Below, piece by piece: positions 3,885-55,689 of a stretch of 64,000 nt of DNA (its first letter is position 1; each line of letters begins with the position of its first letter). Below the pieces are notes generated by a model, which was given only the letters and a program-made list of their open reading frames with translations, had not been told where the DNA came from and searched no databases. The stretch covers positions 48,358,111 through 48,422,110 of the forward strand of contig CM023537.1 in the NCBI GenBank assembly GCA_013350335.1, in the 5' to 3' direction. The translations under genes and the position numbers were made by a program. Origin of the DNA: Chimonanthus salicifolius (Eukaryota > Streptophyta > Magnoliopsida > Laurales > Calycanthaceae).

Positions 3885-4066
3885 ACCCATAACTTTTATC
3901 TATTTTTATTTTTCACTTTAATTCCAACTCATTTGTAACATGGGTGTTTTCTAAAGGCCACGTGTCTTCAAGGGGGGACCCATATGGGACCCTCAAACTA
4001 CTCACACGTTAAACCCCCTATTATTACATCATAATTCTACAAATTTAAAGGTTGAGTCATTATAGT

Positions 4067-15610: not shown

Positions 15611-16625
15611 GGGTAGTGATCCTTTCATGGGTATTTTGTGTAACGCGACAAAGGATTTAAGGCATTATCTATTTTACCCTTCCACTGCCGTATGAGAGTA
15701 TTTAAAAAAAATTCAGTGATCCAGTCAATGAGCCGGTCAGTGATCCGATTTAAGTGGTCTGATCAGTGATCCGATTTGCTATTCTTTATAAAAAATACAG
15801 TCTCACTTAGATAAATTTCAGTGAGCCAGTCAGTGAGCCGATTTATTGTGATACCCTGCACACCAAACCAATGTGGGAGTCCCACATTGGTTTGGAAGGA
15901 AGAGAGGCTTGGGTGTATAAGAGGCCAGCCCACCATAAACTCGTAAGATGCGTTTTGGGCCTGGCAATGTGGGCCCGGACCCAAAAGCAAAAACCGCTCG
16001 GGCTCGCTTATGTGCGAGGCCCAAAGCAGACAATTTCTTACTGAGTTGGACCCTAGGCTTTGTGTTCGGATCGGGTCTTTACAAATGGTATCAGAGCCTC
16101 AGTTCAGCACTTTGACTGTGTGGGCCTTCCTCCTTCCCTAGTGTTGTTGAGCTAAGCCGGGTCGAACCGGGAGCGGCTCGAGGCTTTTGGGGGGATGATT
16201 GTGATACCCTGCACACCAAACCGATGTGGGACTCCCACATCGGTTTGGAAGGAAGAGGGGCTTGGGTGTATAAGAGGCCGGCCCACCATAAACTCATAAG
16301 ATGCGTTTTGGCTGGGCCATGTGGCCCGGGCCCAAAAGCAAAAACCGTGCGGGCTGGCTTGTGTGCAAGGCCCAAAGCGAACAATTTCTTATTGAGTTGG
16401 ACCCTAGGCTTTGTGTTCGGGTCGGGTCGTTACATTTATATTGTAGTGGAATGATCCGATGAGCCGATCAGTGATCCAGCGAGCCGATTTATACCGTAGT
16501 GGAAGGGTCAATGATCCGGCAAGCCGGTCAATGAGCAGATTTATACCGCAATGAAAGGGTAAAATGGGCAATACCCTAAATCCCGTGTCTGATTATACAA
16601 AACACTCGTGAAAGGATGGCTACCC
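15611..16625. mobile_element. Mutator-type MITE with long TIRs, split by a TRIM
   Basis: The ends are inverted repeats of about 85 bp: the left begins GGGTAGTGATCCTTTCATGG and the right, read inverted, GGGTAGCCATCCTTTCACGA, both continuing to TTTTACCCTT. The flanks carry a 9-bp target duplication (aaattgcaa at 15,602-15,610; gaattgcaa at 16,626-16,634), typical of Mutator insertion. Without the nested TRIM the element is about 420 bp. Its interior has short repeats of gtgatccgat and gagccgatc. No transposase is encoded. Confidence 0.85.
15847..16434 (+). mobile_element. TRIM retrotransposon 1 (complete)
   Basis: Two direct LTRs (15,847-16,083, 237 bp; 16,200-16,434, 235 bp) start TGTGATACCC and end in ACA. 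The 116-bp interior opens with AATGGTATCAGAGCC, an initiator-Met primer-binding site, and closes with the polypurine tract CTTTTGGGGGGATGA. A perfect 5-bp duplication TTTAT flanks the element. It has no coding capacity and must be moved by enzymes of another element. Each LTR contains a palindrome with 13-bp arms around gatgtggg/cccacatc. It is nested in the Mutator MITE. Confidence 0.93.
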
Positions 16626-21686: not shown

Positions 21687-22189
21687 GGCACCTCATGTAG
21701 ACACCCGATTTTTCTGCCTCCACACACCCGATTTCAAAAAATCAGATGAAATTACCATTCTACACCTCCTTGTTTTATTCATTCGAACGAACTATCAGTT
21801 CATTTTTAAGTTCGTTCGAATGAATGTACTCATCCAAACGAACAAATCAGTGTAGTTTCAGTTCGTTCGGATGAGTGTTCATTCGAATGAATGAGTCAAA
21901 TTTTGTGAAGGATTGACATATATATGTTCATTCTTTCGAATGAACAGTTAGTTCATTCGAATGAAATGTCATTCATTCAAATGAACCAAATTGTTCATTT
22001 GAACAAATGAACACTCATTCGAAGGAACGAAAATTACACTAAGGTATTCGTTCGGTTGAGTACATTCATTCGAACGAACTGAAAATTCGTTCAAATGAAT
22101 TCATATGCGGGGGTAGAATGGTAACTTCACCCAAAAATTCGAAAACGGGTGTGTAGAGGCAGATTTTTCGGGTGTTTGAATTGCTCGCC
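21687..22189. mobile_element. Mutator-type MITE filled with CATTCGAATGAA palindromes
   Basis: Inverted ends of about 83 bp (left GGCACCTCATGTAGACACCC; right inverted GGCGAGCAATTCAAACACCC, both running into CTGCCTC and later TTACCATTCTAC) are bounded by a perfect 9-bp duplication ttttaaaaa (21,678-21,686; 22,190-22,198). The interior is a dense series of short palindromes around ATTCGAACGAAT and CATTCGAATGAA. No protein is encoded. Related ends occur at 22.84 kb and at 51.0/52.4 kb. Confidence 0.88.
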
Positions 22190-23496: not shown

Positions 23497-23770
23497 TGTA
23501 TTGAACCATCTACAAATCAAGAGCCATAAAACGAAGCAACGACAGCCTTGCACACGGTATCACAGTCTGGGACACGGTAACACGGCAACACAGATCACAC
23601 GGCAATCACAAGGCAAAAGATTTCTTCTCCACTGATTTCTCCATTGTGATTTCTCGTGTATATTTTTGGAATAATTTCCATCTTTGTAATATCTATACAA
23701 TATATTAATAGAAGAAACTCTCTCATGAAAAAGGGAGAAGAGTACACACCATTTTATCGATCTTTGCTTT
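23497..23770 (+). repeat. Copia 5' LTR
   Basis: It begins TGTATTGAACCATC and aligns with 28,761-29,031 along its length. A 12-bp insertion (caatcacaaggc region near 23,604) and a short loss at the right end are the main differences. The right limit is approximate because the last bases have diverged. Confidence 0.85.
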
Positions 23771-23771
23771 A

Positions 23772-23785
23772 TGGTCATCAGAGCC
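23772..23785 (+). other. Copia primer-binding site with one inserted base
   Basis: TGGTCATCAGAGCC equals the initiator-Met site TGGTATCAGAGCC with an extra C. It lies right after the 5' LTR. Confidence 0.75.
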
Positions 23786-23983
23786 ATCCGCCTTTGAGTG
23801 AATCACCGGTGAAAGTTCCATACTTGATCTGCTCACTGATTGAGAACATCAAAACAGGGCTTGCTGCCCCTTTTTCATATCAGACATTCGCGAAGCCTGT
23901 GCTCACGTTAGCCCGTTCCAGATTCAGATCTGCATTCTCAACTTGCATCTTGGATTGCGATCTGGTCGTGCGGCGATGACTGC

Positions 23984-24148
23984 GGCATCAAGTCTTCCCC
24001 TTCTACGGTCTCGATTGCAGATCTAGTTGTGTTATTGTTTCCAGATAGGTTGGGCCAGCACTGTTGAATCAAGCATTCCCCTTCTGCTTGTCTCGGCTGC
24101 AGATCTAGTTGTGTTGTTGTTTCCAGATCGGTTGGGCCAACACTGTTG
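23984..24148 (+). repeat. 82-bp tandem duplication in the Copia leader
   Basis: The block running from atcaag through cagatctagttgtgtt to ggttgggcca(g/a)cactgttg occurs twice in direct order, with gcagatctag at 24,017 and 24,099, so the period is 82 bp. It lies in the untranslated leader between the 5' LTR and gag. Confidence 0.75.
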
Positions 24149-24519
24149 TCATTGTTGTCACTGTCTCCGATCTACACTCCGGCTCATTGCCTCCGCCCGG
24201 CCTCCAAACCTCCCACTCAGATCTGTTCTACAACTGGCTCCTATGCTCGCACGCTACCTGTTTCAGCTGTCCTTCTTCTCGCTCCACTGCTAGAAACGCA
24301 CCCTTTGCTGTTCTCAGCAAGACCTCAGAGCAGGTATCCTGGACCGTGAGTCATCTATCCTCGAGGAACAGAATAGTGCATCCGTGTGCTGCATACACTT
24401 GTCTACCTCTGACAGCTAGTGAATCACTATCTCAAAGTCTCAATCGAGATTTGTCCTTGCCGTCTATTTGTTGGTCGGTTGTATTCTACAAAGACAGCCT
24501 ATTTCTTTTTCCTTTAACA

Positions 24520-25513
24520 ATGGCCTCTTCCTCCACAACAGAGTATCTTTACCGATCCTCCCTCAATGTTGGAAATTTTGTTTCCATTAAACTCACCCAA
24601 ACTAATTTTCTCCTATGGAAAACCCAAATCATGGGCCTCATAGAAAGTCAAGACTTGCTTGGCTTTCTCGATGGAGAACTTTCAATGCCAGATCAACTTC
24701 TTAAAATCCCCTCAACTGCAGATGGTTGTGAGATCACTACCAAACCTAATCTTGATTATATTGCAAGGAGACGGTCTGATAGGCTACTCCATGGATGGAT
24801 TATCGGCACCCTGTCAGAAGTTCTTGGGCTGGTGGTCGGACTTGACACATCAGCCGATGTCTAGCGTGTTTGCTGGACTCATTTGCGCAAGAATCGTAAG
24901 AGAGAATTTTACCTTCTCCAACACCTACAGTTACACTCCAAGGATAATCACTCTATAACTGAGTACCTTCTCCTTTTCAAAAACTACTGTGATGATTTGG
25001 CTTGCCATTGGCAAACCTGTGGATTATCGCAATACGGTCTTTAGTCTTCTCAGAGGACTTGGCAGAGGCTATGAGTCCTTTGTTACTACTATGCTCAAAC
25101 CACCCATTACATCTTATCGGGACCTCATTCCTCTGTTACAAAGTCATGAAACTATGAAAACTCTTCATAGTCCAAGCAACTCATCTCTTCCTAATCATAA
25201 TATGGCGTTTGTTGAATAGCGACCTAGCAGCTCCAATTTCAACCGTGGGACCAACAGGAGAGGAAGAGGAACTGGTAGTTCCTGCGGACAAGGATTTAAT
25301 CAAGGACTATCTCAAGCTGATGGCTACACTCAACTGGGCTATCAGTCAGCTCCTTACAACTGTGGTAGCTATCTTCGACCCTCACAAAAGCCCACTCCTG
25401 ACAAATCACTTAGAGACAGAGAGGAAGTCTGATGCCAAATATGTGACAAACCACGACACACGGCTCTTGAGTGCTGGCATCGATTTAATCAAGTCTATCA
25501 ACCAAATGATGTG
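24520..25513 (+). pseudogene. Copia gag remnant
   Basis: The frame starts MASSSTTEYLYRSSLNVG and has the copia gag core (KLTQTNFLLWKTQIMGLI, then LDGELSMPDQ). It meets a stop at 24,862 and shifts frame near 24,990 and 25,210. A CCHC zinc knuckle (C-x2-C-x4-H-x4-C, CQICDKPRHTALEC) is readable near 25,434-25,476. The intact product would form the capsid and bind RNA; this copy cannot. Confidence 0.8.
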
Positions 25514-28500
25514 ACTCAAGCCCTTGTAGCCACTTCTCTCAATGATAACCCAGACAAGACTTGGTTTCTTGACACCAGGGCAACGTCTCATATGACATCA
25601 GATCCTGGTAAGCTCACCTCTCTTGTTCCGTATCATGGCCCTAATAGGGTGTTTGTTGGTAATGGTAATTTGCTTGATATCTCTCATATTGGATCCATAA
25701 ATATTGAAATGGGAAATTCAAATCTACATCTAGATCATGTTCTGGTGGTCCCTGCAATAAAAAGGAACTTGTTATCTGTTAGTCAACTTACCTCTGATTA
25801 TCCTTATATAGTTGAGTTTGATTCTCGTGGGTTTGTGATCAAGGACAGAAAAACAGGAGTCGGGATTGCCTCAGGAAGTAGGACTAGTGGATTGTATGCT
25901 CTTCAGCCCTAGGAAGAGGCAGCTATGTTTTCTACCAGATTTCGCTCTGCAACTGATAGTGTTTGGCATCAACGACTTGGCCATCCTCAGTCACGGGTAG
26001 TAGAATTTTTGAAGAAAAATAAGCTCATTTTAAGCATTAGTAAAAATAAGGTTGACCTTATATGTAATAGTTGTCAGATGGTTAAGGTCTGTCGTCTTCC
26101 TTTTATTCAATCTCATGATGTTGCAATGAACCATTTGGAGTAATTCATAGTGATTTGTGGAGACCCTCTCCAGTAACCTCTTTTCAAAGATTTCGTTATT
26201 ATGTGATATTTGTGGATGAATGCACTCGGTACACATGGCTCTATCCTCTCAAGCACAAGTCAGGTTTTTTAAAGTGCTTTATTATGTTCTAGAAACTTAT
26301 TGCTACTCAGTTTGACAAGAAAATTCAGATTTTTCAATCCGATGGTGGTGGTGAATTTTCTGGTTCAAAGTTCAAAACCTTTTTGTCCGATCTAGGCAGT
26401 AAATATCAAATGTCTTGCCCATATACTCCTGAACAAAATGGGTTAGTTGAATGCAAACATAGCAATATCACTGAGTTGGGCATTACCATGATGTTCCATG
26501 CTCATCTCCCTCAGCGATTTTGGGTTGAGGCTTTTACTACTGCTGCATGGTTGATTAATAAACAACCTCTCGGGTTTTGGATTGGAAAAGTTCGTATGTA
26601 ACTTTATTTTCTAAACATCCAGACTATAGCTCTCCGCGGACTTTTGGCAGTAAGTGTTTTCCCTATCTTCAAGATTACACTAAGAATAAGTTTGAACTAG
26701 ATTACACTAAGAATAAGTTTAAACCACGGTCTCTTCCATGCATCTTTTTGGGCTACAGTGAACATTACAAGGGCTACCGGTGTTACTATCCGCCAACCAA
26801 TCGCGTTTATCTCTCGCGGCATGTGGTCTTTGATGAATCAAGTTTTCCCTTCCATAACCTAAGGTCACTTTACACTTCTTCACATACTACTACTGACCTG
26901 ATTGAGTTCTCTGACTGGTTTATAGATACTATAGTGGCAGTAACGGCCTCTCCCACATCTTCCACTATTTATGACACAAGAAGTCCACCCCCTTCTGATC
27001 CTATCACTACCGATCCAGAGGCTAGAGACAGTGATATCTCTACTGCGGATGATTTCGTTCAACCCCCTACGGTGTCTATTTGTGCGACAAATCAACCTAC
27101 ATGTGATGATCAACCTCTCCCATCAGACCACTCTCCAATGCCACTTGCAGCTGATGATATTTCTCCAATGCCACTTGCTGCTGATGATATTTCTCCACTG
27201 CCACTTGCTGCTGATGATATTTTTCCCTCCACTATGAGTTCTATGTTGTCTCCTACTGGCATCTCTTCCAGTGCAAGCTCACATTCCCCTAGAGCAACTT
27301 GTTGCAGCCATGGTATTATTAAGCCTAATCCTAAGTACTTTAATTTTGATTATTGTTTGTTGGCCCAATCCATACCATTAGAACCTAAGTCTATTATCTC
27401 CTCTCTAAAACACCCTGGTTGGACTGCTGCTATGCAAGACGAACTATTGGCTCTTTCTCTCAATGATACTTGGGATTTGGTTCCCCGACAGTCCACCATG
27501 AATGTTCTTGGTTGTAAGTGGGTATTCAAAACAAAACTCAAGTCTGATGGTTCTTCGGATCGATTAAAGGCACGCCTTATTGCAAAAGGATTCAATCAGA
27601 TTTCCGGCATTGACTTCTCTGAAACGTTTTCTCCTGTTGTCAAGGCTGTTACAATTCGACTTATTCTCACCGTGGCTTTAGCTCATAATTGGGAGATTCG
27701 ACAATTAGACGTTAAAAATGCTTTTCTTCATGGGCATTTAACTGAGCCTGTATTTATAGAGCAGCCTCTAGGATTTAAAGATCCTCTGCAGCCAACTCAC
27801 GTATGTTGTGCTCTATATGGGTTGCGCCACGCTCCACGCGCATGGTTTGATTGATTTAGCACCTTTGTTTTGAGACTGGGCTTCTACTGTAGCACCGCTG
27901 ACACCTCGTTATTCATTCATCATGGTCGCCAAGGTACATTGTTTTTATTATTATATGTCGATGACATCACTATTATAGGATCCAACCTTGTCCTGCTTCA
28001 TGGCTTTATTCGGTAGCTTAGTCAGGAGTTTGCAATGAAAGATCTTGGTCCTTTCCACTATTTTTTGGGCCTCTTGGTTATCCCTTTCTCTTGTGGTTTA
28101 TTTCTCAACCAGACAAAATATGCTTTTGATCTTTTGGATCGTGCTCAGATGATTGGTTGCAAGCTTGTCTCCACACCTATGGTCACAAAGTGGCGACCAA
28201 GTTCTACTGATAATGACATCTATCCGTATCCTTCCTTTTATCGCAGCATTATTGGTGGCTTACAATATCTCACTATCACTCGTCCTGATATTTCTTATAG
28301 CGTCAACTCTGTCTCTCAACATATGCATCAATCTATTGTTCTGCATCTTCAGATGGTGAAGCGGATTCTTCGTTATATTCATGGGACGATCACTATTGGG
28401 TTTTGTCTTCTGACTCACTGTCCTATGCAACTCTATGCCTTCTCTGGTGCCGATTGGGTTGGTTGTCCAACCACATGCTGCTCTACCACTCGTTTTTGTA

Positions 28501-28844
28501 CTTATCTTGGTGGCAATTGTATCTCCTGGACTGCTAAGAAACAACCTATTGTTGCTATGTCTAGTACTGAGGCAGAATATCGTGCGCTCGCCTCCGCTGC
28601 TGCTGAACTCACATGGCTCACCTACCTTATTCGTGATCTCGGCCTTCATATTTTATCCATTCCACTGCTTTACTCAGATAATATCTCGGCATTACATCTC
28701 ACCATAAATCCTATTTTTATGCTCGTACGAAACATACCTCCCCGTCTCAGTTTGTGGGGGGATATTAAGCCATCTACAAATCAGGAACCGGAAAAGGAAG
28801 CAACGACTGCCTTGCACACGGTATCACAGTCTGACACACGGTAA
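25514..28844 (+). pseudogene. Copia pol remnant: protease, integrase, RT, RNase H
   Basis: Protease shows WFLDTRATSHM near 25,562, where the family has D-S/T-G-A, so the glycine is lost. The pre-integrase zinc region (VWHQRLGHP, CNSCQMVK) lies near 25,960-26,090. The integrase core has SDLW, QSDGGGEF and EQNGLVE, keeping the D,D,E triad (26,150-26,460). Reverse transcriptase runs from WVFKTKLKSDG (27,520) through LDVKNAFLHG to YVDDITIIG (about 27,955). RNase H ends in SSTEAEYRAL (about 28,560). Stops lie at about 25,910, 26,141, 27,852 and 28,018. The order integrase before RT identifies copia. Confidence 0.9.
28751..28760 (+). other. Copia polypurine tract
   Basis: The G-rich run gtttgtggggg directly precedes the 3' LTR, the position where plus-strand cDNA is primed. 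Confidence 0.6.
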
Positions 28845-29031
28845 CACGGCAACACAGATCACACGACAAAAGATTTCTTCTCCACTGATTTCTCCATTGT
28901 GATTTCTAGTGTATATTTTTGAAGTAATTTCCATCTTTGTAATATCTGTACAATATATTAATAGAAGAAACTCTCTTATGAAAAAGGGAGAAGAAAACAC
29001 ACAATTTTATCAATCTTTGTTGTTCTCTACA
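28761..29031 (+). repeat. Copia 3' LTR
   Basis: It begins GATATTAAGCCATC and ends ctctaca, aligned with 23,497-23,770. Beyond 29,031 the LINE sequence resumes. Confidence 0.85.
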
Positions 29032-29396: not shown

Positions 29397-30158
29397 CTAA
29401 TAGAGTATTGCATGGGATCTGGTGCTGTTCTGGAAGATGCGATGCTTTCTCTCTGTCCAGATGTGCCACACAACAGCAGGAAGAGTTAGATTTACCGTAA
29501 GCTTTTGAAGACGGGAATTCATGGCAGATGTAAGAGCGAAATGATCCTTAAGAATGTTATGAGATTGCCTTGAAAAACCACAATTTTCAGGGATTAAATC
29601 ACAAATGTTTATAACAAAACTACATTCCAACAAATGATTGGCAGTTTCACTATCAGAATTACAAAAAATGCAAGCCAGATCACATTGTATGCCAATACTA
29701 TGAAGCTTGAATCTAGTCTTGAGTCCTGAATTGAACAATATCCAAGCAATAAAAGAGTGTCGATTTATACAACGAGGGAACCATGTGCTTTTAACCCAAG
29801 GCGGCTCATCTGAAGTAGGAAGGGAGGCTTCATAAGCAAAAGAAAGGGAGAAGCATCCACTTTTATCAGCCACCCAGAGAATTTGGTCATCAGCCAGAAT
29901 TCTAGGAAATCTAAAAGCTTCAATCCTACTCCAGACATCTGTCATTCTTGCAAAGATTGGAGTGGGCAACTTCCAAGAACCATTGTGAATCAACTCACAA
30001 ACTGAAATATATCTGTCCAGACCCAATTGATAAATCAGTTGATTTCCAAATAGATCAACAAGGAAAACACCAGGATCAATCCATGGGTCTAACCAGAATC
30101 TGATCTTTCTCTCATTTCCAATGGCATGAATGATATGTGACTTTGCTACATCCCTCAC
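29397..30158 (-). pseudogene. LINE C-terminal zinc-binding domain (zf-RVT)
   Basis: A 253-aa open frame on the minus strand has the features of the plant LINE domain after reverse transcriptase: RFWLDPWIDPG near the start, the W-F-P-R...F-I-A-W-I-L block, and the cysteine-histidine motif CIFCNSDSETANHLLEC (residues about 162-178). The domain is thought to help bind nucleic acid. It is the longest intact piece of this LINE, but upstream stops separate it from the RT core. Confidence 0.85.
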
Positions 30159-31380
30159 AGCTATGATAGATTTTCAAGCCCATGAGTATTTGCAGTTTTG
30201 TTTGATACTCCAAAAATTTTTGCCTATAATGTATTTAGCATGGATCTACCTTATCCAAATGCTTTCTTTACCAGTTGCAATGTCCCAGGTTTGCTTCATG
30301 AGACAGGCAAAATTTATCTGCTTGATTCACCTCAATCCCAAGCCACCCTTTATTTCGGAGAACAAATCCTTTCCCAAGCTATTGTGTGCACTGGCTTCTT
30401 TATATGATCAGCCCACAAGAAGGATCTCATAAGTTTCTCAATTTGCCCAATATTTGTGGAGACCATTGATTGTAGATTTAAGAAGCTCAAGTCTACCAAA
30501 ATAAGAAAGGAGTTTACTTATCTAATTACTCATACGGCTGTGAACCTTGGAAATCAAATTAGAGCAATCAGATACGAAGTCTAGCAGAGAAGAGAGGAAG
30601 TCCAAGGTATTTGAGAGGCAGCATAGCTTCTTGCATTCCAAGGATGTGACAAATTTCATTTCTATAGTTTGATGAACCAGAGAATATAACTTGACTTTTA
30701 GAGTAGTTTACAGACAGTCCAGAGAAAGAATGGAAGTCATCCAAGAGATGTTTAAGTGCTCTAGCTGAATCTCAATTAGCACCACAAAATATCATTAAAT
30801 CATCAGCAAATAAGAGGTGCGTTATGGTAATGTTACCTCTCTTGAAGGGACAAGATATAGAGCCTCAACACATTTAAGTAGACACAAGATAAGCTCTCCA
30901 TAACAATGCATAAAAGAAGGGGGGGAAAGTGGATCACCCTGCCTTAGACCCATCGAACTTTGAAAGAAGCCATGAGGAGTACCATTAACTACAACTGAGA
31001 AAGCAGGATCAATTATACATTTAGAAGTCCAGCTAATCCATGAAGGGAGGAGTTCATTTGTCTAAGAATGTGAAAGAGGCAGTTCCATTTAACATTGTCA
31101 AATGCTTTGCGTAAGTCGATCTTAATACACATTCTAAGTGGCCCATGGCCTAAGTGAATACCCCAGAGAAGATCATGTAACAAGATATTCTCAGTGAGGC
31201 TTCGAGATTGATGGTAACTAATGAGTTTGGGCATGAGGGCTTTAAATCTATTGACAAGAATCCGAGAAATCATTTTGTATATTTCATTTGAGAGAGCAAT
31301 GGGATGAAACTGTTCAAGTTTATTTGCAGCACCTGTCTTAGGAATAAGGACCAAGAAAGAGGTTTTTACTAATGACAACA
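30159..31380 (-). pseudogene. LINE reverse transcriptase core, broken
   Basis: On the minus strand the start encodes LVKTSFLVLIPKTG, HPIALSNEIYKMISRILVNR and KIDLRKAFDNVKWN (31,013-31,380), then GLRQGDPLSP at 30,931-30,951 and the catalytic FADD at 30,799-30,810. These are reverse transcriptase blocks 1-5 in order. Several frameshifts and stops break the frame. The enzyme would copy LINE RNA at the nicked target. Confidence 0.88.
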
Positions 31381-34300
31381 TGTAACGTCCCACCCTTTTT
31401 CACTCACCGAAAATCAGAGTATATTTTTTTTTATAAAAAGTGAGAGAGAGCGGGAACGTCACGACGCAAGCTAAGTCCGGTTTTACAAACCCGACCCTTA
31501 ACTGGCAAACAAATACGTGTGCGTGGACCAAGTCCATTAAAACAGTTCACACGCTTATTAATTTAACTACGTAATTATTATATGGAACAGGGAATGGAAA
31601 TGACAGTGGACGTGAAGGAAGCCAAGCTTAGGAGCTTGGGTAGATTGTGTTTATTTTACTTAATTTATTTTGGAACAATGTATTTGAGATAATTAGCAGG
31701 GCGTTAATCAACGCGCCCAGTAGGAAGTCCAAATAGGGTTATACACATATGATTAATATAAAAATCAGAATAAGAGCATCATATTTAAACTGTAACATAT
31801 CATAGTACCAAAAATAGCGCATGATAAACATATCCAAACCATGCAAATGTATGTGACATGTCATGGGTGTCATATGCCAATGACCCCCTCCCAATCTCCA
31901 TATCAACACCATACAAATCATAATAACATTTTCCTTGATATCATGAAACCATATCAAGGTGTTCCCTTGGCCATTTACGTCCGTAATGTTTTGTGACGGC
32001 ACCACCAGGTCACTGTTATACCTCCCCACGTGTGTTAATAGGAATTACCGATGGAGCGTGGACTCCTCCCTCTGGGCAGGGTTTTTGGACTAGTTACCCC
32101 GGAACCCTTTGGCCCAATTACGCTGTACCCCTATCTAGCAATTCCAGACAAGGCCAATATATCAATGGTTCACATAGCTTTTTCCAAGCTAGTTTTCAAG
32201 CCCCAAGTCATATCCGGACAGTTCATAACTTGGCTTACTGCCCTCATATACTCCCTCCCATGCCATGCATGAGATCATGAATGCAAAAATGTCATTTCAT
32301 GTCAAATCATATTGAAATTCAGCTCATAAAACTTATACCATTTGATTTACCAAAATAAACATTGTACTAAAATAAAAACCAGTAACATATAAGATCCATA
32401 TGCATCTCAATAAGGTAGGAATCCTACCAAATCCCAGTATAGTATCCTTGTTGTTTGTGACGTGACGTGCAACGATTACGTCAAAACCACTCACACACCC
32501 GTTTACGAAATCTCTTTACCTTAAATGAATTCAATCATATACAATAATCAATTTAATTATCCATTTGATTTAAATCATCCCTTACATCTTTCTAGTTAGA
32601 CTGAGGTTTCTGGAAACATCATATAAAAATCAACTTTTCATTTCAGTCGACTGAATCACGCTCAGCTATAGTGTTCTGCCATACCGCAGACTTTCAGTGG
32701 ACTGAAATACATTTTCAGTCTGCTGAACTCCAACTCAGTACTGTTATTCTTTGACTCACTAACATTTCAGTCTACTGAATCACAGATTCAGTCTGCTGAC
32801 TCTGAGTCAAACCCATTATATCCTCGGTCAAACCCCTTTCAGTCGACTAATCACAAATTCAGTCGGCTGACTTTGGATCATATTAACTGTGCATTAGGCC
32901 AGTATAGATTCAGTCGACTGAATCCATGATTCAGTCGGCTGAATCATCAGCCAACAATTTACGTGTTTGCTAAGTAATCATTCAATCGACTGAATCAAAG
33001 ATTCAGTAGGCTAAAACATGTCAGATCCCCTTACTTCTTTGATACGTCTTTTTTCAGTCGACTAAATCCCATATTCAGCCTGCTGAAACATCATTATACC
33101 CCTTATATTTTAATCCAGACATGGTTCAGTCGACTGAATCCAAACATTCAATTGGTTGAAACTCCCAGAATTGGTTTTCTGTCTTCCGCCACACCAGTTC
33201 AGTGGACTGAATCCCTGATTCAGTCGACTGACTGTTTGTCAGTCTACTTTGTTTGTATATTTGGCTTGACCCTTCCTCATGGAATCCATTCCTTATCATT
33301 TTTAAACATAAATAAAGCCATTCACCCACTCTCAGTGAGTTCACTCTATCCTCTAGCCAAAGCTAGAGTCTTTTCACAATCTATTCCTATCTTAAGCCAT
33401 TAAACATAATTATAAATTTAATCCCTTGGTTGTTGGTTTCCAACACATGTCCATTCCATGGCTTATAACAGTTTAGCCATCCATTCCATGGATTGTGTAA
33501 CCCATAGATTCGGCCATTCCATGACCAAGTCTATGGTTCACCCTTAACCTTAATCATCCATTGTTTTTAAGCTTAAGCCCGTCTCCTCCTTTCTTTTGCT
33601 CTGTCTTTACTCCTCAGTCCTTCTCATTCTCTTCTTGTTCTTCAGCAACATTCTCCAAGTATTGATGGTGTAGATGGAAAAGAGATAGAGAAGAAGATGA
33701 GAGAACTCTCTTGTTTCCAAAAGGTGAAATTCGGCCAAGGGTGTGATGTGCCCCTTGGTTGGCATCCCTTTGTAACAGCCCAAAACTCTCCATCTTTCCT
33801 CATAATGTTTCCTTTGACCAATGAGTCCCTTGGCTTAACCAAGGAAACTCTTGGCTTAAACCAATGAGTCCCATTGTATTCCCAACGTGTGCATGGTTCC
33901 ATGTCCCTTGAGATGGAGACTTTCCATCTTCCTCTTCAACTCACCTTATTTACTCAATTGAACTCACTCACTCGAGCAACTTTAATTCTTTTAAACTCAA
34001 CACTTGTACTTAATTAAATTCGAACTCAATTGAGCTCACTAATGGTGGACCAAGTCAACCATGACCTAGCCGATCATGCATGTGGTGACAACATGGCACG
34101 TGGGTCCCATCATTGCCATATCACTTGATGATGTGGCACCTTGCCTAGTTGGCTTCCATGCATGTCACATCACCCACTTGCCACCTCACTTGATGATGTG
34201 GATTTGAGTCTTAAATTGGGTAGCTGATCCAATTAATTAAACCTTACCCATTTACTTAAAATCAACTCATCTATGACCCATTGAGTCCCAATTGGGCAAT

Positions 34301-34499
34301 TGGCCCATTTAATCACATTTACCCAATTACTTCTAAATCAAATCCTATCCATGATCCATTGGATCTTAATTGGGTTATTGACCCAACTCCTTTACCCATC
34401 TAAGGTCTATTTCATCCATAAATCTTAAATTCAATCAATTTAACAATTTAAATAGACAAAATCCAATATATTTATGCATTGAAAAATCAGGGTGTTATA
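31381..34499 (-). mobile_element. Solo LTR of a gypsy-type element, 3,119 bp
   Basis: It starts TGTAACGTCCC and ends GGGTGTTATA, the inverse-style ends of plant gypsy LTRs, and is bounded by a perfect 5-bp duplication CAACA (31,376-31,380; 34,500-34,504). It splits the LINE reverse transcriptase between GDVV and MLSLVKT, so the pre-insertion site is certain. No gag, pol, primer site or second LTR is inside, hence a solo LTR. By similarity of internal words to the LTR at 61,449 it is read as minus orientation. It carries the paired-dyad array at 32,642-33,250. Confidence 0.85.
32642..33250. repeat. Paired-palindrome array, eight 72-bp units
   Basis: First dyads (TTCAGTCGACTGAATC type) start at 32,693, 32,766, 32,838, 32,909, 32,981, 33,053, 33,125 and 33,198. 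Second dyads (TTCAGTCGGCTGAA type) start at 32,714, 32,787, 32,858, 32,930, 33,002, 33,074, 33,147 and 33,219. The period is 71-73 bp and the distance within pairs 20-22 bp. One extra dyad lies at 32,642. The roughly 36 bp between pairs differ in every unit. It is non-coding and inside a solo LTR. Confidence 0.92.
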
Positions 34500-34504
34500 C
34501 AACA

Positions 34505-34982
34505 TCTCCAATTATTTTCCAACATTTATGGAAGAAGATAAGGTTGAAACCATTTGGTCCTGGTGCTTTATGGGGATTGGAATTGAAGACAACATAAAGA
34601 ATTTCATCAAGGGTAACTGGGGATGACATTGATGCAGCCTCATTATCATCAATCCTACTGGAAACACTTAACTGGCTAAAGGAAGAAGGCAGATCATCAG
34701 CAATAAGGGAATGAGAAAAAAGAATTGTTAGAATGAGAGAGAGCATCAGCAGCATGCTTTATTTGGCAACCTCTGAACAGTCATTGTCATAAGCCATTTG
34801 AGCATGATACAGATTTGTTCGAGCATCAGAGATTCTTTTCGAAGAATTGGGTTTACTCTTATGCCAGCTGCATAGGGCTATTTTTTATTCAATTCTCTTC
34901 ATACCCAAGGTGGAGTTGGACCAAGAGAATTTACCCCATGAATGGAGAAGTCTAAAAGGTTAGCTCGCTCAATACAGTGATT
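34505..34982 (-). pseudogene. LINE region before and at the start of RT
   Basis: The minus strand encodes ASMSSPVTLDEILYVVF, then HKAPGPNGFNLIFFHKCW and KIIGDVV, the well-known entry to the plant LINE reverse transcriptase. Upstream, a degraded linker (RISDARTNLYHAQ-like) runs to the TRIM at 34,988. The next part of the protein continues beyond the solo LTR at 31,380. Confidence 0.85.
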
Positions 34983-34987
34983 AAACT

Positions 34988-35499
34988 TCTAACAACTCTA
35001 CCCCAACTTTCTAGTGTGATATTGTTCGCTTTGGGCCCACCATGCCCTCACGATTTTGCTTTGGGCCCAGGCCCATATGGCCAGGCCCAAAAGGCCTCAC
35101 ACATGGGAGAGGGGGCTCCCCTCATATTAACACCCAACCCACCCACCTCACTACCGATGTGGGACTTTCTTTGAGGTGGGTGGGGGTATTACAATCTACC
35201 CCACTTAAAACCAGAGCCGTCCCCAGCTCTGTCACATCACAGAGGTAGAGGGCCCACACAGTCCGAGTGTCGAACCGAGCTTTGATACCACTTCTAACGA
35301 CCCTACCCCAACTTCCCAGTGGGATATTGTCCGCTTTGGGCCCACCATGCCCTCACGGTATTGCTTTGGGCCCTGGCCCACATGGCCAAGCCCAAAAGGC
35401 CTCACACATAGGAGAGGGGGGCTTCCCTCATATTAACACCCAACCCACCCACCTCACTACCGATGTGGGACTTTCTTTGAGGTGGGTGGGGGTATTACA
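34988..35499 (-). mobile_element. TRIM retrotransposon 2 (complete, minus strand)
   Basis: Two LTRs (34,988-35,193, 206 bp; 35,293-35,499, 207 bp) enclose about 99 bp. On the minus strand the interior starts with TGGTATCAAAGC (primer site, 35,279-35,290) and ends with the purine tract aagtggggtaga before the TGTAATACC start of the other LTR. A perfect 5-bp duplication AAACT flanks it (34,983-34,987; 35,500-35,504). It sits inside the LINE between linker and endonuclease. Confidence 0.93.
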
Positions 35500-35504
35500 A
35501 AACT

Positions 35505-35640
35505 GTTCTGTTTGGAGGAGCATCACCCCTTTCTTCAGTAGCTTACCTCACACAATTGAAGTCTCCAATAAAAACACAAGCATGATGAATAGAGGAGGTA
35601 GGTAAAATTTGCACTTCATCTAAACATCCTAGCCATATGA
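35505..35640 (-). pseudogene. LINE endonuclease C-terminal fragment
   Basis: The minus strand reads VFIGDFNCVR followed by ATEERGDAPPNR, the conserved G-D-F-N block of the apurinic-type endonuclease of plant LINEs. Similarity fades near 35,640, which I take as the 5' truncation of this LINE copy. Confidence 0.75.
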
Positions 35641-35832
35641 TGTTAAAATTTGAAAATTAGATCGTTATGAACTGTCGATTTTTCATATCCATCTTAAAAA
35701 ACTATAATTACTAGGATGGAGGAGTTTCTCTTAAATTTTATGATCCATTAAATCCTGTATTTAAGTTTTCATTGTTAAATTTAAAAGTTGCGAGTTCGAA
35801 ATTTATTAGCATAGACAAATGATTTATAAATA

Positions 35833-35868
<36 letters not shown>

Positions 35869-36610
35869 TAAATGATTTTGACAACTATGAAGATGACTCT
35901 CACCCGTGGAGCACACAAACAATGAGGTGGAGGTGGAGAAAACCTCACTAAAAGTTGAATTGGACTTAAAAAGAAATCTGATATGCATAAGTCAATCAAT
36001 TGTATCAATTTTCTTTTAAGTTGTGCTGACAATATATTTCAATTATTTAACTAAATGAGTTTTTCAATTTAAATTCTAAACTTATTTAAATAAAAAGAAA
36101 TTACTCAAATATACTTTCAATTTATATAGTTACAAGACAATTTATAAAGCATCCAAATTGTATACTTTCATTTTCCCGTTTGGATCCAATTTTTTTAAAT
36201 AGATTTATCTAAAATCTGAGATTTTTTTTTTTTACATTTAAAAGTACAAACATAAACATATATTTGTGCTCTTTGAATTTCAAGAAGAGATTTTTAATTG
36301 ATTTTCTATAGAGAATTTTTTTATAAAATTAATTAGTGTAATAAGCTATAATATTGTATATGTATGAAAGAAAGGTTCTAAATTTTAATATGGCAAACAA
36401 TTTCAAATTGCAATCTCACGCATATTTGTCTTAGAATTTTTGGAATTCATGATTAGTCTTTTTTCTTTTTTGAATAACATTGGTCAATAAGTGAATTCAT
36501 TGGGACATCATTCGTACTGAATTAATTTTTCTTGAAAAATTAAGGTGGTCTTTAATTGTGATATTAGTCGTCATGAGAAAAATCATATTTTAATGAAAGA
36601 AAAAAATACA
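35641..36610. other. AT-rich intergenic DNA with a TTA microsatellite
   Basis: No gene is recognised. A perfect TTA/TAT run lies at about 35,838-35,868. Confidence 0.5.
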
Positions 36611-36615
36611 ATTTT

Positions 36616-37121
36616 TTTAACGACCCAATCCCAACATCTCAGTGTGATATTATCCGTTTTGGGCCCACCATGCCCTCACGGTTTTGCTTTGGGCCCTGTC
36701 CCACATGGCCAAGCCCAAAAGGCCTCACACATGGGAGAGGGGGGACTTCCCTCACATTAACACCCAACCCACCCACCTCACTAACGATGTGGGACTTTCT
36801 TTGAGGTGGGTGGGGGTATTACAATTTATCCCCTTTAAAACCAGACCTTCCCCGGCTCTGTCACATCACAGAGGTAGAGGGCCCACACAATCCGAGTGTT
36901 GAACCGTACTCTGATTACCACTTTTAACGATCCAACTTCCCAGTGTGATATTGTCCGTTTTGGGCCCACCATGCCCCCACGGTTTTGCTTTGGCCCTGGC
37001 CCACATGGCCAGGCCCAAAAGGCCTCACACATGGGAGAGAGGGGCTTCCCTCATATTAACACCCAACCCACCCACCTCACTACCGATGTGGGACTTTCTG
37101 GAGGTGGGTGGGGGTATTACA
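36616..37121 (-). mobile_element. TRIM retrotransposon 3 (complete, minus strand)
   Basis: LTRs at 36,616-36,823 (208 bp) and 36,923-37,121 (199 bp) closely resemble those of TRIM 2. The minus-strand interior starts with a primer site carrying one extra base (TGGTAATCAGAGT) and ends in a purine tract. A perfect duplication ATTTT flanks it (36,611-36,615; 37,122-37,126). Confidence 0.9.
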
Positions 37122-37126
37122 ATTTT

Positions 37127-48128: not shown

Positions 48129-48918
48129 TGTAATATCCTGACCTGTGAGCTAGAGGTCAGGCTCTAGAAGGGCTGATCCAAGTGAAACTGAGTCCTGTCA
48201 GTCGGACCAACAGTGGAGGCCGATCGGATCCGACAACCCAACAGTGGTTGGGCGTGTGGGAGCTTTACAGAGTCCTACATCGAAAGTGAGGAACTTCCTG
48301 ATGGGGTTTATAAGTGGTATCCCTCTTCACTTAGGTGTGACGCGTTTTGAGCCTACCGAGTTGGGCCAGGCCCAAAGGCAAAACGGTGAGGGCCATGTTT
48401 TTAGACCAAAAGCAAATAATTTCACACTAAGTTGGACCCTAAGCTCTTTTCACGGATCAGGTCGTTACAAATGGTATCAGAGCTCCAGGTTCTACACTCG
48501 GACTGTGTGGGCTTACTGCCTTCCACTGGGTTCGTTGGGTCGAGCCGAGGGCGGCTCTGGGCTTTAGGAGGGTGGATTGTGATATCCTGACCCATGAGAC
48601 AGTGGCAAGGCCCTAAAAGGGTTGATCCAAGTGAAATTGGGCCCAGTCAGTCGGACCAACAGTGTGGGCCGGTCGAATCTGACAACCCAACAGTGGTTGG
48701 GCGTGTGGGAGCTTTGCAAAGTCTCACATCGGAAGTGAGGAACTTCCTGATGGGCTTTATAAGTGGTATCCCCCTTCACTCAGGTGTAACGCATTTTGGG
48801 CCTACCGAGTTGGGCCAGGCCCAAAGTTAAAACCATGAGAGCCATGTTTTTGGACCCAGAGTGGACAATTTCACACTGAGTTGGACCCTAAGCTTTGTTT
48901 ACGAGTCGGGTCGTTATA
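48129..48918 (+). mobile_element. TRIM retrotransposon 4 (complete)
   Basis: Two 341-bp LTRs (48,129-48,469; 48,578-48,918) start TGTRATATCC and end GTTACA/GTTATA. The 108-bp interior opens with AATGGTATCAGAGC and closes with gctttaggagggtgga. A perfect duplication AATTA flanks it (48,124-48,128; 48,919-48,923). LTRs are longer than in TRIMs 1-3, so this is a separate subfamily. Confidence 0.93.
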
Positions 48919-48923
48919 AATTA

Positions 48924-54156: not shown

Positions 54157-54578
54157 ATGGGTCAAAAAAAAACTCCTTCTGTTCTCAAGAAACCTCCAAA
54201 TCCCTTCCCTGACCCCTCTCAAGACCTGAAATACCAGGCTGAGTGCCTGGAACTTACCCTGCTGTCGGAGTTCTGGTTCGACAATGTTAAGATTAACGCC
54301 CTTGCTGACGCCATCAAGCGGGGTGTCGAAATCCCCCTCCCACTCAAGATGAGCTCATCTCTGCTGCCAAAGCCAAGATCTTCAACGAAAAGGTCGAAAA
54401 TTTCAAGAGGAAATTGGCCAAATGCTCCGACGAAGAAGAGCAGGTCGAACTAATTGCAGACTACATCTGTAAGCAATAACAGGAGCTCATTCCGCCTACA
54501 ATCCCGCAAAAAGTTCCTTCTCCTTGATGCAGACAGAGCCTCCCTTTACAAAAGGCATAGCCCTTTAGATACCTTTGT
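54157..54578 (+). pseudogene. LINE ORF1 N-terminal fragment
   Basis: The frame starts MGQKKTPSVLKKPPNPFP and after one frameshift near 54,345 continues with DELISAAKAKIFNEK and DEEEQVELIADYI before a stop. It ends at the TRIM inserted at 54,579. ORF1 proteins of plant LINEs bind the element RNA; this piece is the poorly conserved front part. Confidence 0.6.
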
Positions 54579-55208
54579 TGTGAAACCCCTGCCAAAAAAA
54601 ACAGCAGCACCTGGACCGATGTGGGAGAGTCCCACATCGGTAGTGGAGAGAAAAAAATGGGGGTTTATTTGAGGCCAGCCCCTCTTAACTCATGTGACGC
54701 GTTTTGGGCCAGGCCATGTGGGCTTGGGCCCAAGAGCAAAATTCGTGAGGGCTCGCTTGTGTGCGAGGCCCAGAACGGACAATATCACACTGAGTTGGAC
54801 CCTAAGTCCTGTATTCAGGTCGGGTCGTTACAATTGGTATCAGAGCCGGGTTCAACACTCGGACTGTGTGGGCTTTTCCTCCTTCCTTGGTGTTGTTGAG
54901 ATGGGCCGAGTCGAGCCGAGGGCGGCTCGAGGCCTTAGGGGGGGGGGGGTGATTGTGAAACCCCTGCCAAAAAAAAACAGCAGCACCTGGACCGATGTGG
55001 GAGAGTCCCACATCGGTAGTGGAGAGAAGAAAATGGGGTTTTATTTGAGGCTAGCCCCTCTTAACTCATGTGACGCATTTTGGGCCAGGCCATGTGGGCT
55101 TGGGCCGAAGAACAAAATCCGTGCGGGCTCGCTTGTGTGCGAGGCCCAGAGCGGAAAATATCACACTGAGTTGGACCCTAAGCCCTGTATTCAGGTCGGG
55201 TCGTTACA
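54579..55208 (+). mobile_element. TRIM retrotransposon 5 (complete)
   Basis: LTRs of 254 and 255 bp (54,579-54,832; 54,954-55,208) start TGTGAAACCCC and end GTTACA. The 121-bp interior opens with ATTGGTATCAGAGCC and ends in a run of G before tgat. A perfect duplication TTTGT flanks it (54,574-54,578; 55,209-55,213). The two LTRs are very alike, suggesting a fairly recent insertion. Each holds the palindrome ACCGATGTGGGA/TCCCACATCGGT. Confidence 0.94.
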
Positions 55209-55689
55209 TTTGTTGATAGTGAGATCTTTGGCGCCCCTACCTTTCAGAACAACTATGTCTTTAACCTCCATTCCTTCTATGCTGCAAGTAAGGAGGAAAA
55301 GGTTAAGATGATCGCTTCTTCCCTTGCATCTAGCAATGGTGCTGCTACCCCTGTTGATGTCAACCCCGCACTGGTTACGCTGGCACGTGCTCAAACTCAG
55401 AGAGGTTCCACCTCGTCATCGTCACGGCAAGTAACTCCGGCTCACATGTTGGGGTAAAAGATCCGGAGGTAATCTCCTCCACATCGTTGCAGTAGACTTC
55501 CCATGCCTCTGTTGTCTGTTATGCAAAGACCAGTGGGCAATGCTTCTTTACTGTTGTGGGCTCAACAACCAAGAAGCCTAACCCCTCCCAGCTGGCTAGC
55601 AAAAAGTCTAGCTCATGTGACCAGCCTCCTCGATCTGATGCCCCATTTTGCATGAACCCCAATATCACCCATGTAAAGGTAAACATGAC

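Follow-up and report, generated by a model that had tools for sequence, protein, structure and literature searches.

Introduction

Sirevirus retrotransposons are known for their repeated motif (RM) boxes, which the available text of Bousios et al. (2010; PMC2829016) describes as high-copy palindromes with divergent flanks, located in the LTR ahead of the TATA box and once more ahead of the ENV gene. The RMs listed there for Vitis (CGGTCGACCG) and Tnd-1 (ACAATCGATTGT) are both short palindromes. They have been called Sirevirus-specific on the basis of a comparison of Ty1/copia elements, and the accessible part of the same article states that no common factor binding the RM boxes could be named (PMC2829016).

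A palindrome array that is probably of the RM-box kind, in a gypsy LTR, is described here. It lies in a stretch of 64,000 nucleotides from Chimonanthus salicifolius (GCA_013350335.1, contig CM023537.1, positions 48,358,111 to 48,422,110 of the forward strand), hereafter called the window. An initial annotation had described there, within a plant LTR, sixteen dyads paired every 72 bp with unrelated spacers, a geometry likened to CRISPR, and had taken the spacing of two helical turns to suggest a protein array on one face of the DNA.

The Host LTR and Its Surroundings

The array sits in a solo Ty3/gypsy LTR of 3,119 bp, which on the minus strand starts with TATAACACCC (relative L007: TGTAACACCC) and ends with CGTTACA. 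These ends resemble those of Tekay/Del elements. No second LTR copy was found in a self-comparison of the window; relatives occur throughout the genome. The element type is deduced from the domain order in two relatives: L007 displays a protease, a reverse transcriptase (RT) and a Tf2-1-like SH3 domain ahead of its 3′ LTR, and in L014 the LTR end CGTTACA is followed by the primer site TGGTATCAGAGT, then by the protease and RT. An LTR with an adjoining primer site, the gypsy protein order and a 5-bp target duplication are thus all observed, the proteins and the primer site being known from these relatives and the window copy itself being a solo LTR. A chromodomain gave no match in the ORFs scanned. 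The assignment to a plant LTR is borne out, and the protein order of the relatives makes it one of the Ty3/gypsy type. The LTR and its neighbourhood are organized as follows.

31381..34499, minus strand: solo Ty3/gypsy LTR (ends read directly; relatives L007 for the LTR start, L014 for the LTR end and primer site)
31376..31380, no strand: target-site duplication CAACA, left copy (direct reading)
34500..34504, no strand: target-site duplication CAACA, right copy (direct reading)
29400..31375, minus strand: LINE-type reverse-transcriptase sequence adjoining the LTR insertion (Pfam zf-RVT 29400-30173, RVT_1 31016-31399)
33670..33710, minus strand: CT-rich stretch, upstream of the array in the sense of the LTR (by eye, window and 9-copy LTR alignment)

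The LINE-type sequence continues to the right of 34504, as judged by eye only. The CT-rich stretch possibly lies in the leader, near the transcription start, and may have a promoter role. In the nine-copy alignment of family A, to which the LTR of the window belongs, the array appears downstream of this possible CT-rich leader, and no clear TATA box is seen below it. A GGTATGT motif resembling a splice donor is recognized by eye after the leader in four of the nine aligned LTR copies (L005, L007, L012 and L013); from this motif, the family A array might be placed in a leader intron.

Several other features were seen in the window. Close to the 3′ terminus of the LTR, a segment of some 117 bp (31582-31698) is inverted relative to other copies, including L014 and L015, which it matches on the opposite strand. 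A Copia element (23499-29019) has LTR-like direct repeats at 23499-23766 and 28763-29019, 88% identical, and RVT_2/SH3_retrovirus ORFs. An inverted repeat with 91-nt arms (21804-22085) contains TTCATTCGAATGAA twice, 74 bp apart, and a family of tandem or near-tandem repeats, related across the window and present in both orientations, is found at 34978-37123, 48129-48921, 54578-55212 and 15845-16437.

Organization of the Dyad Array

The basic motif is a 14-bp palindrome, arranged at alternating spacings of about 51 and 21 bp in a 72-bp unit. The strict grid described initially is reproduced exactly: the starts of the first dyads of the pairs step by 73, 72, 71, 72, 72, 72 and 73 bp, those of the second dyads by 73, 71, 72, 72, 72, 73 and 72 bp, and the two members of a pair lie 20-22 bp apart. 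The count has to be raised from sixteen to 17 with a lone exact palindrome, 51 bp ahead of pair 1.

32642..33232, no strand: dyad array, 17 dyads, 72-bp unit, spacings 51/21 (dyad scan and direct reading)
32642..32655, no strand: lone dyad, exact palindrome TTCAGTCGACTGAA (mismatch scan)
32693..32727, no strand: pair 1, dyads at 32693 and 32714 (scan)
32766..32800, no strand: pair 2, dyads at 32766 and 32787 (scan)
32838..32871, no strand: pair 3, dyads at 32838 and 32858 (scan)
32909..32943, no strand: pair 4, dyads at 32909 and 32930; the first exact, the second of the exact TTCAGTCGGCTGAA form (scan)
32981..33015, no strand: pair 5, dyads at 32981 and 33002 (scan)
33053..33087, no strand: pair 6, dyads at 33053 and 33074 (scan)
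33125..33160, no strand: pair 7, dyads at 33125 and 33147; the first exact, the second weak (4 mismatches allowed) (scan)
33198..33232, no strand: pair 8, dyads at 33198 and 33219 (scan)

A scan of the window allowing at most two mismatches, with both strands counted, gave 34 matches, 30 of which lie in the array and four at 21878-21965; 100 shuffles of the same window gave 0.76 matches on average and five at most. The first dyads had been described as mostly full palindromes. This holds for the majority letters of 21 LTR copies, which show unit-specific states, with TCGA in the first dyads and TCGG in the second ones, but not for the window copy, where only two of the eight first dyads are exact TTCAGTCGACTGAA and one of the eight second dyads is exact TTCAGTCGGCTGAA. 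A coding repeat with an FSRLN-like frame was considered and rejected, since spacings of 20-22 and 50-52 bp break the frame.

Conservation and Origin of the Array

The conservation of the dyads was analyzed on an alignment of 21 copies of the window's LTR array (family A). At A/T sites, non-consensus letters amount to 1.7% in the dyads, 9.4% in the spacers and 10.4% in the flanks, a difference attained in none of 10,000 permutations. CHG sites also differ between the dyads and elsewhere (2 of 10,000 permutations); the central CG of the dyad is as variable as CG elsewhere (4,111 of 10,000), and dyad position 14 varies by unit. The comparison across copies that the initial annotation had proposed thus reveals spacers that are not as conserved as the dyads. 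In the nine copies of family B, described below, the corresponding non-consensus values are 1.0% in the dyads and 5.6% elsewhere.

Pairwise diversity among the 21 copies is 0.110 in the dyads; the long spacers reach 0.196, the short ones 0.179, and the flanks 0.169 on one side and 0.208 on the other. Gap fractions are 0.071 in the dyads, 0.134 in the short spacers and 0.009 in the long spacers: some dyads have disappeared entirely, and such losses affect whole dyads and short spacers more often than the long ones.

When the 210 pairs of copies are sorted into six divergence bins, the idea that the dyads are held while the spacers drift is upheld by the transversions, which stay flat in the dyads (0.023-0.030) and rise outside them from 0.035 to 0.151, so that the ratio between the two falls from 0.71 to 0.17. 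Transitions are also flat in the dyads (0.075-0.091) and rise elsewhere from 0.049 to 0.130; in the closest copies, those of the dyads are above those elsewhere (0.075 versus 0.049). Much of the variation of the dyads consists of C>T or G>A changes at CG and CHG sites, and we read the dyad transitions as a probable decay of methylated sites after insertion. The whole divergence pattern would be as expected if active lineages were under purifying selection and dead copies then decayed neutrally.

The spacers differ from unit to unit in the window, as initially stated; they are not unrelated in the wider sense, each one being recognizably the same between LTR copies. They are thus inherited, and not unrelated inserts. 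Their likeness within an array varies among copies. The long spacers of L009 and L011 are closely similar, with mean pair scores of 19.7 and 21.0 out of a possible 37 (null -6.5), those of L005 and L014 are partly alike (3.6 and 0.3), and those of the window and L007 are nearer to unrelated sequences, with -2.8 (letter-shuffled null -6.2, sd 3.5) and -4.2 (null -6.8), respectively. The similarity of the units in L009 and L011 suggests that arrays begin by tandem duplication, their spacers drifting afterwards. As judged from the sequences, the array is a tandem duplication in which the spacers decay faster than the dyads. A plain satellite fits this origin (L009 and L011) but fails on the dyad constraint.

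The Palindrome in Other Retrotransposons

In the 852.6-Mb genome, 14,025 occurrences of the exact palindrome were counted, whereas about three occurrences are expected from the base composition of the window and the reversed control gives two. Pairs of exact palindromes spaced by 20-23 bp number 1,050 genome-wide (control 0), the distance being 21 or 22 among the matches listed. In all of the first 50 distinct places among the matches listed, which cover the first 2.75 Mb of contig C1, another dyad is found at most 75 bp away. These places contain arrays of three LTR types, called A, B and C; L012 has a single pair.

The palindrome, paired 21-22 bp apart, is also present in Copia LTRs with unrelated flanks. 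The LTR flanks of family A (700 and 900 nt on the two sides, nine copies) gave no match at E ≤ 0.01 with those of B (nine copies) or C (three copies). Between spacers chosen to represent A/D, B, C and E, no similarity exceeded the null maxima, save a borderline case for A and C (23 versus 22). Family D is distantly related to A, with a spacer score of 39 compared with a null maximum of 24. Cross-matches exist between A loci and B/C loci, over about 1,050 bp for L007 with L018/L020 and about 440 bp for L009/L011 with L018/L020. Shared LTR flanks were considered as their source and set aside: except for 52-53 bp at its end, the L007 stretch matches neither the LTR of the window nor that of L014, and nothing in L006 matches the stretch of L018. 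The L009/L011 cross-matches start about where their LTR starts. All of these cross-matches are therefore taken as other repeats.

The signs that make family B a Copia LTR are weak but consistent, and come from two loci. In L017, a primer site at 3934 (minus strand) is followed by a gag match that does not reach the curated cut-off (E 2.4e-4); the RVT_2 fragment of L008 likewise stays under the cut-off. The B arrays contain only five to eight dyads, and in all nine copies the array is followed, 72 nt downstream, by a TTTAAAT box. In the three C copies, the array is followed by TATAAAA at distances of 95, 95 and 148 nt.

A Copia element at about 18.670-18.681 Mb of C1 carries array C in each of its two LTRs, with 99.7% identity between L042 and L060 over 863 bp. 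In this C/E element, the first LTR is followed by a primer site, L056 contains a Copia pol, array E separates pol from a third ORF (L051/L060), and the 3′ LTR (L060) is preceded by four GGGGGAG tracts. Read outside 18,672,501-18,673,499 and assigned by its layout rather than by phylogeny, it combines the features of a Sirevirus: Copia pol, arrays in the LTR and before the third ORF, and several PPT copies before the 3′ LTR. The third ORF matches Pfam Transposase_32, "putative plant transposon protein" (via L051). A search for relatives retained none of 1,442 candidates of the protein database at E ≤ 0.001, and a search of solved structures gave nothing convincing (best E 0.53). In the region of this ORF, L060 338-1536 contains two overlapping frames, apparently broken here, with a basic start and a coiled-coil-like end recognized by eye. 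L017 8734-9900 also matches Transposase_32.

A Ladder of Spacings

Spacings near whole helical turns are observed in the unrelated families too, in agreement with the near-helical phase noted for the window. At 50 loci, 580 of 597 adjacent spacings lie within 1.6 bp of 20.9, 31, 40, 51, 61.2 or 72 bp, in a pool limited to spacings of at most 80 bp (longer ones were dropped) and with rungs set after the data were seen; as most spacings are inherited within families, the independent evidence for this ladder consists of a few length classes, and not of 597 events. The rungs used differ between families: 51 bp in A, 50 bp in B, 39-40 and 50 bp in one array of C, and 30-32 and 50 bp in E. Family D, the relative of A, has spacings of 30-31 bp in four places and of 50-51 bp in twenty. 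For 26 hand-picked distinct family spacings, the best period is 9.8 bp, not 10.5 bp (R 0.78, reached by none of 2,000 uniform sets).

The 72-bp phase of the initial description is valid for the array of the window; elsewhere, steps of about 61 bp (40 + 21), 31 bp and 21-22 bp take its place. Seventeen spacings are off the ladder, including 53 and 56 bp in E and the 54 bp of L053, which is the single inter-pair spacing of that locus. In L006 and L050, both of family B, an extra pair lies 19 bp past the preceding dyad, again off the ladder. L046 555-855 shows a run of 22-bp steps right after a truncated Copia gag, and is possibly a rearranged element.

What the Array Might Be

It seems fairly probable, from these comparisons of sequence, that the array is a set of phased cis-acting sites of the RM-box kind, for a dimeric DNA-binding protein, in a Ty3/gypsy LTR. 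Taken together, the constraint on both arms of the dyad, the pairing at two turns and the ladder suggest protein dimers aligned along a single DNA face. The rows of dyads in unrelated retrotransposons are probably the docking sites of one DNA-binding protein. As to the initial proposal of a protein array on one DNA face, the near-helical phase and the dyad constraint agree with it, and the binding itself remains presumptive. The position of arrays B and C upstream of TATA-like boxes, and of E upstream of an ORF, suits an enhancer; family A differs from B and C in this respect. Several other observations are unfavourable to this reading: the loss of whole dyads and short spacers, the variability of the central CG and of position 14, the higher dyad transitions in the closest copies, the inheritance of spacings within families, the best period of 9.8 bp, the 17 spacings off the ladder, and the ready folding of the arrays as RNA.

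The following scheme may thus be proposed. Each dyad would be bound by a dimeric protein, probably a transcription factor of the host; through the pairs and arrays, the dimers would come to lie on the same side of the DNA, act jointly and drive the nearby promoter. Unrelated elements would carry the array for the transcription that it gives under that factor. Tandem duplication of the unit would enlarge the array, the spacers then decaying, and the dyads and their phase would be kept in the lineages that still transpose. DREB/CBF-type factors have RYCGAC as their core. A host factor of this type was considered and set aside: it would fit the GTCGAC/GCCGAC alternation, but not the wider constraint. 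Literature searches, not aimed at a binding protein, brought up none.

The dyads could instead act as RNA, a role already proposed for the LTR palindromes of maize Sireviruses, transcripts of the array forming hairpins that lead to host small RNAs or are of use to the element. The array indeed folds at -213.7 kcal/mol, versus -147.9 kcal/mol for 60 letter-shuffled controls (z -8.7), and seven of the eight pairs fold into one imperfect long hairpin; such folding is nevertheless expected of any palindrome. The accessible parts of PMC5311732 and PMC10760457 further report that maize small RNAs map to palindrome-rich LTR regions. The check for compensated changes proposed initially, run on 444 family A dyads, gave no clear excess: stem pair 5/10 has seven double changes versus 3.3 expected, five of them compensated, but the other pairs show none (3/12, 5 versus 4.6; 6/9, 5 versus 5.5; 7/8, 4 versus 10.9). 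Moreover, C>T and G>A changes in the stem are balanced (68 versus 78), without strand bias, the B and C arrays are upstream of the likely promoter, and hairpins need no helical phasing. An RNA role thus looks unlikely, if not negligibly so, and it can coexist with protein sites. A phased sequence positioning nucleosomes or favouring recombination, rather than transcription-factor sites, would agree with spacings near multiples of 10.2 bp; nucleosome positioning, however, needs no 14-bp word and the constraint spans most dyad positions, which leaves this explanation very improbable.

The arrays might also be the targets of an anti-silencing protein encoded by the element, as VANC is for the VANDAL motifs. 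Non-coding tandem arrays of a motif, gaining and losing units, are typical of VANC targets in the available text of PMC5735166 and PMC10398659, and one array lies directly upstream of the third ORF in the Sirevirus-type element. This ORF, however, matches only the Pfam "putative plant transposon protein", with no relatives and no convincing solved structure in the searches made, and the VANC21 motif YAGTATTAY is not a perfect palindrome, as far as given in PMC10398659; we thus find the parallel quite doubtful. Slightly less credible still is an extended version, where the array would be the address tag of an activator or anti-silencing protein from the Sirevirus-type third ORF, and gypsy elements would have acquired this tag, in helical phase, and would exploit the protein of an unrelated element. 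A functionless, ordinary tandem repeat, with dyads kept alike by gene conversion or by alignment bias, has in its favour the close similarity of the units in L009 and L011, a start by tandem duplication, and a possible underestimate of dyad divergence, the alignment being guided by the dyads. Conversion would yet erase the TCGA/TCGG states specific to each unit in the majority letters of the 21 copies, the long spacers align nearly gap-free, element types whose spacers are unrelated nevertheless retain this dyad, and the constraint at A/T sites speaks against it; we give this explanation little credit. The likeness to a CRISPR array with acquired spacers is one of superficial geometry only. 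The host is a eukaryotic LTR, the spacers are vertically inherited and keep their order from one LTR copy to the next, those within L009/L011 being clear duplicates of each other, so that this comparison has to be abandoned with hardly any reservation.

Phased sites for a dimeric protein thus remain our preferred reading. One palindrome in two retrotransposon superfamilies, held against the drift of the spacers near helical turns, argues for a shared dimer. If true, regulatory arrays would be shared by, or would converge in, unrelated mobile elements.

Comparison with Known Systems

VANDALs are DNA transposons. Like the array described here, the VANC targets that they carry consist of a short tandem motif in non-coding transposon DNA, with gain and loss of units, according to the accessible text of PMC5735166 and PMC10398659; they differ in that their motif is not a perfect palindrome and that their cognate protein is known. 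The palindromes of maize Sirevirus LTRs (Bousios et al. 2016, as cited in the available parts of PMC5311732 and PMC10760457) are likewise clustered in the LTR cis-region. They are described as small-RNA hotspots, whereas no clear signature of RNA structure is seen here. Plant LTR enhancer boxes such as those of Tnt1 comprise two or three motifs, in the portion of PMC2829016 available, compared with many paired dyads on a helical ladder here. Literature searches gave no match for TCAGTCGACTGA, nothing on such arrays for helical turn, LTR retrotransposon and enhancer (titles and beginnings of abstracts), and PMC2829016 only for Sirevirus repeated motif and gypsy.

The RM boxes remain the closest described system. 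With its 17 dyads, the window array contains more than the at least eight copies of a palindromic motif that characterize them, and the C/E element shares the LTR and third-ORF layout given in the available text of PMC2829016. That portion of the article says nothing of dyads in pairs or of spacing by helical turns. The CGG-CCG core of the RM boxes is absent here, the core being AGTCGACT and the second-dyad form having CGG on one strand only; the Tnd-1 RM also appears without this core in the same text (PMC2829016). The host is a Ty3/gypsy LTR instead of a Sirevirus of the Ty1/copia group. As both the Sirevirus host and the CGG-CCG core are lacking, the window array is considered a variant of the RM boxes, rather than a member.
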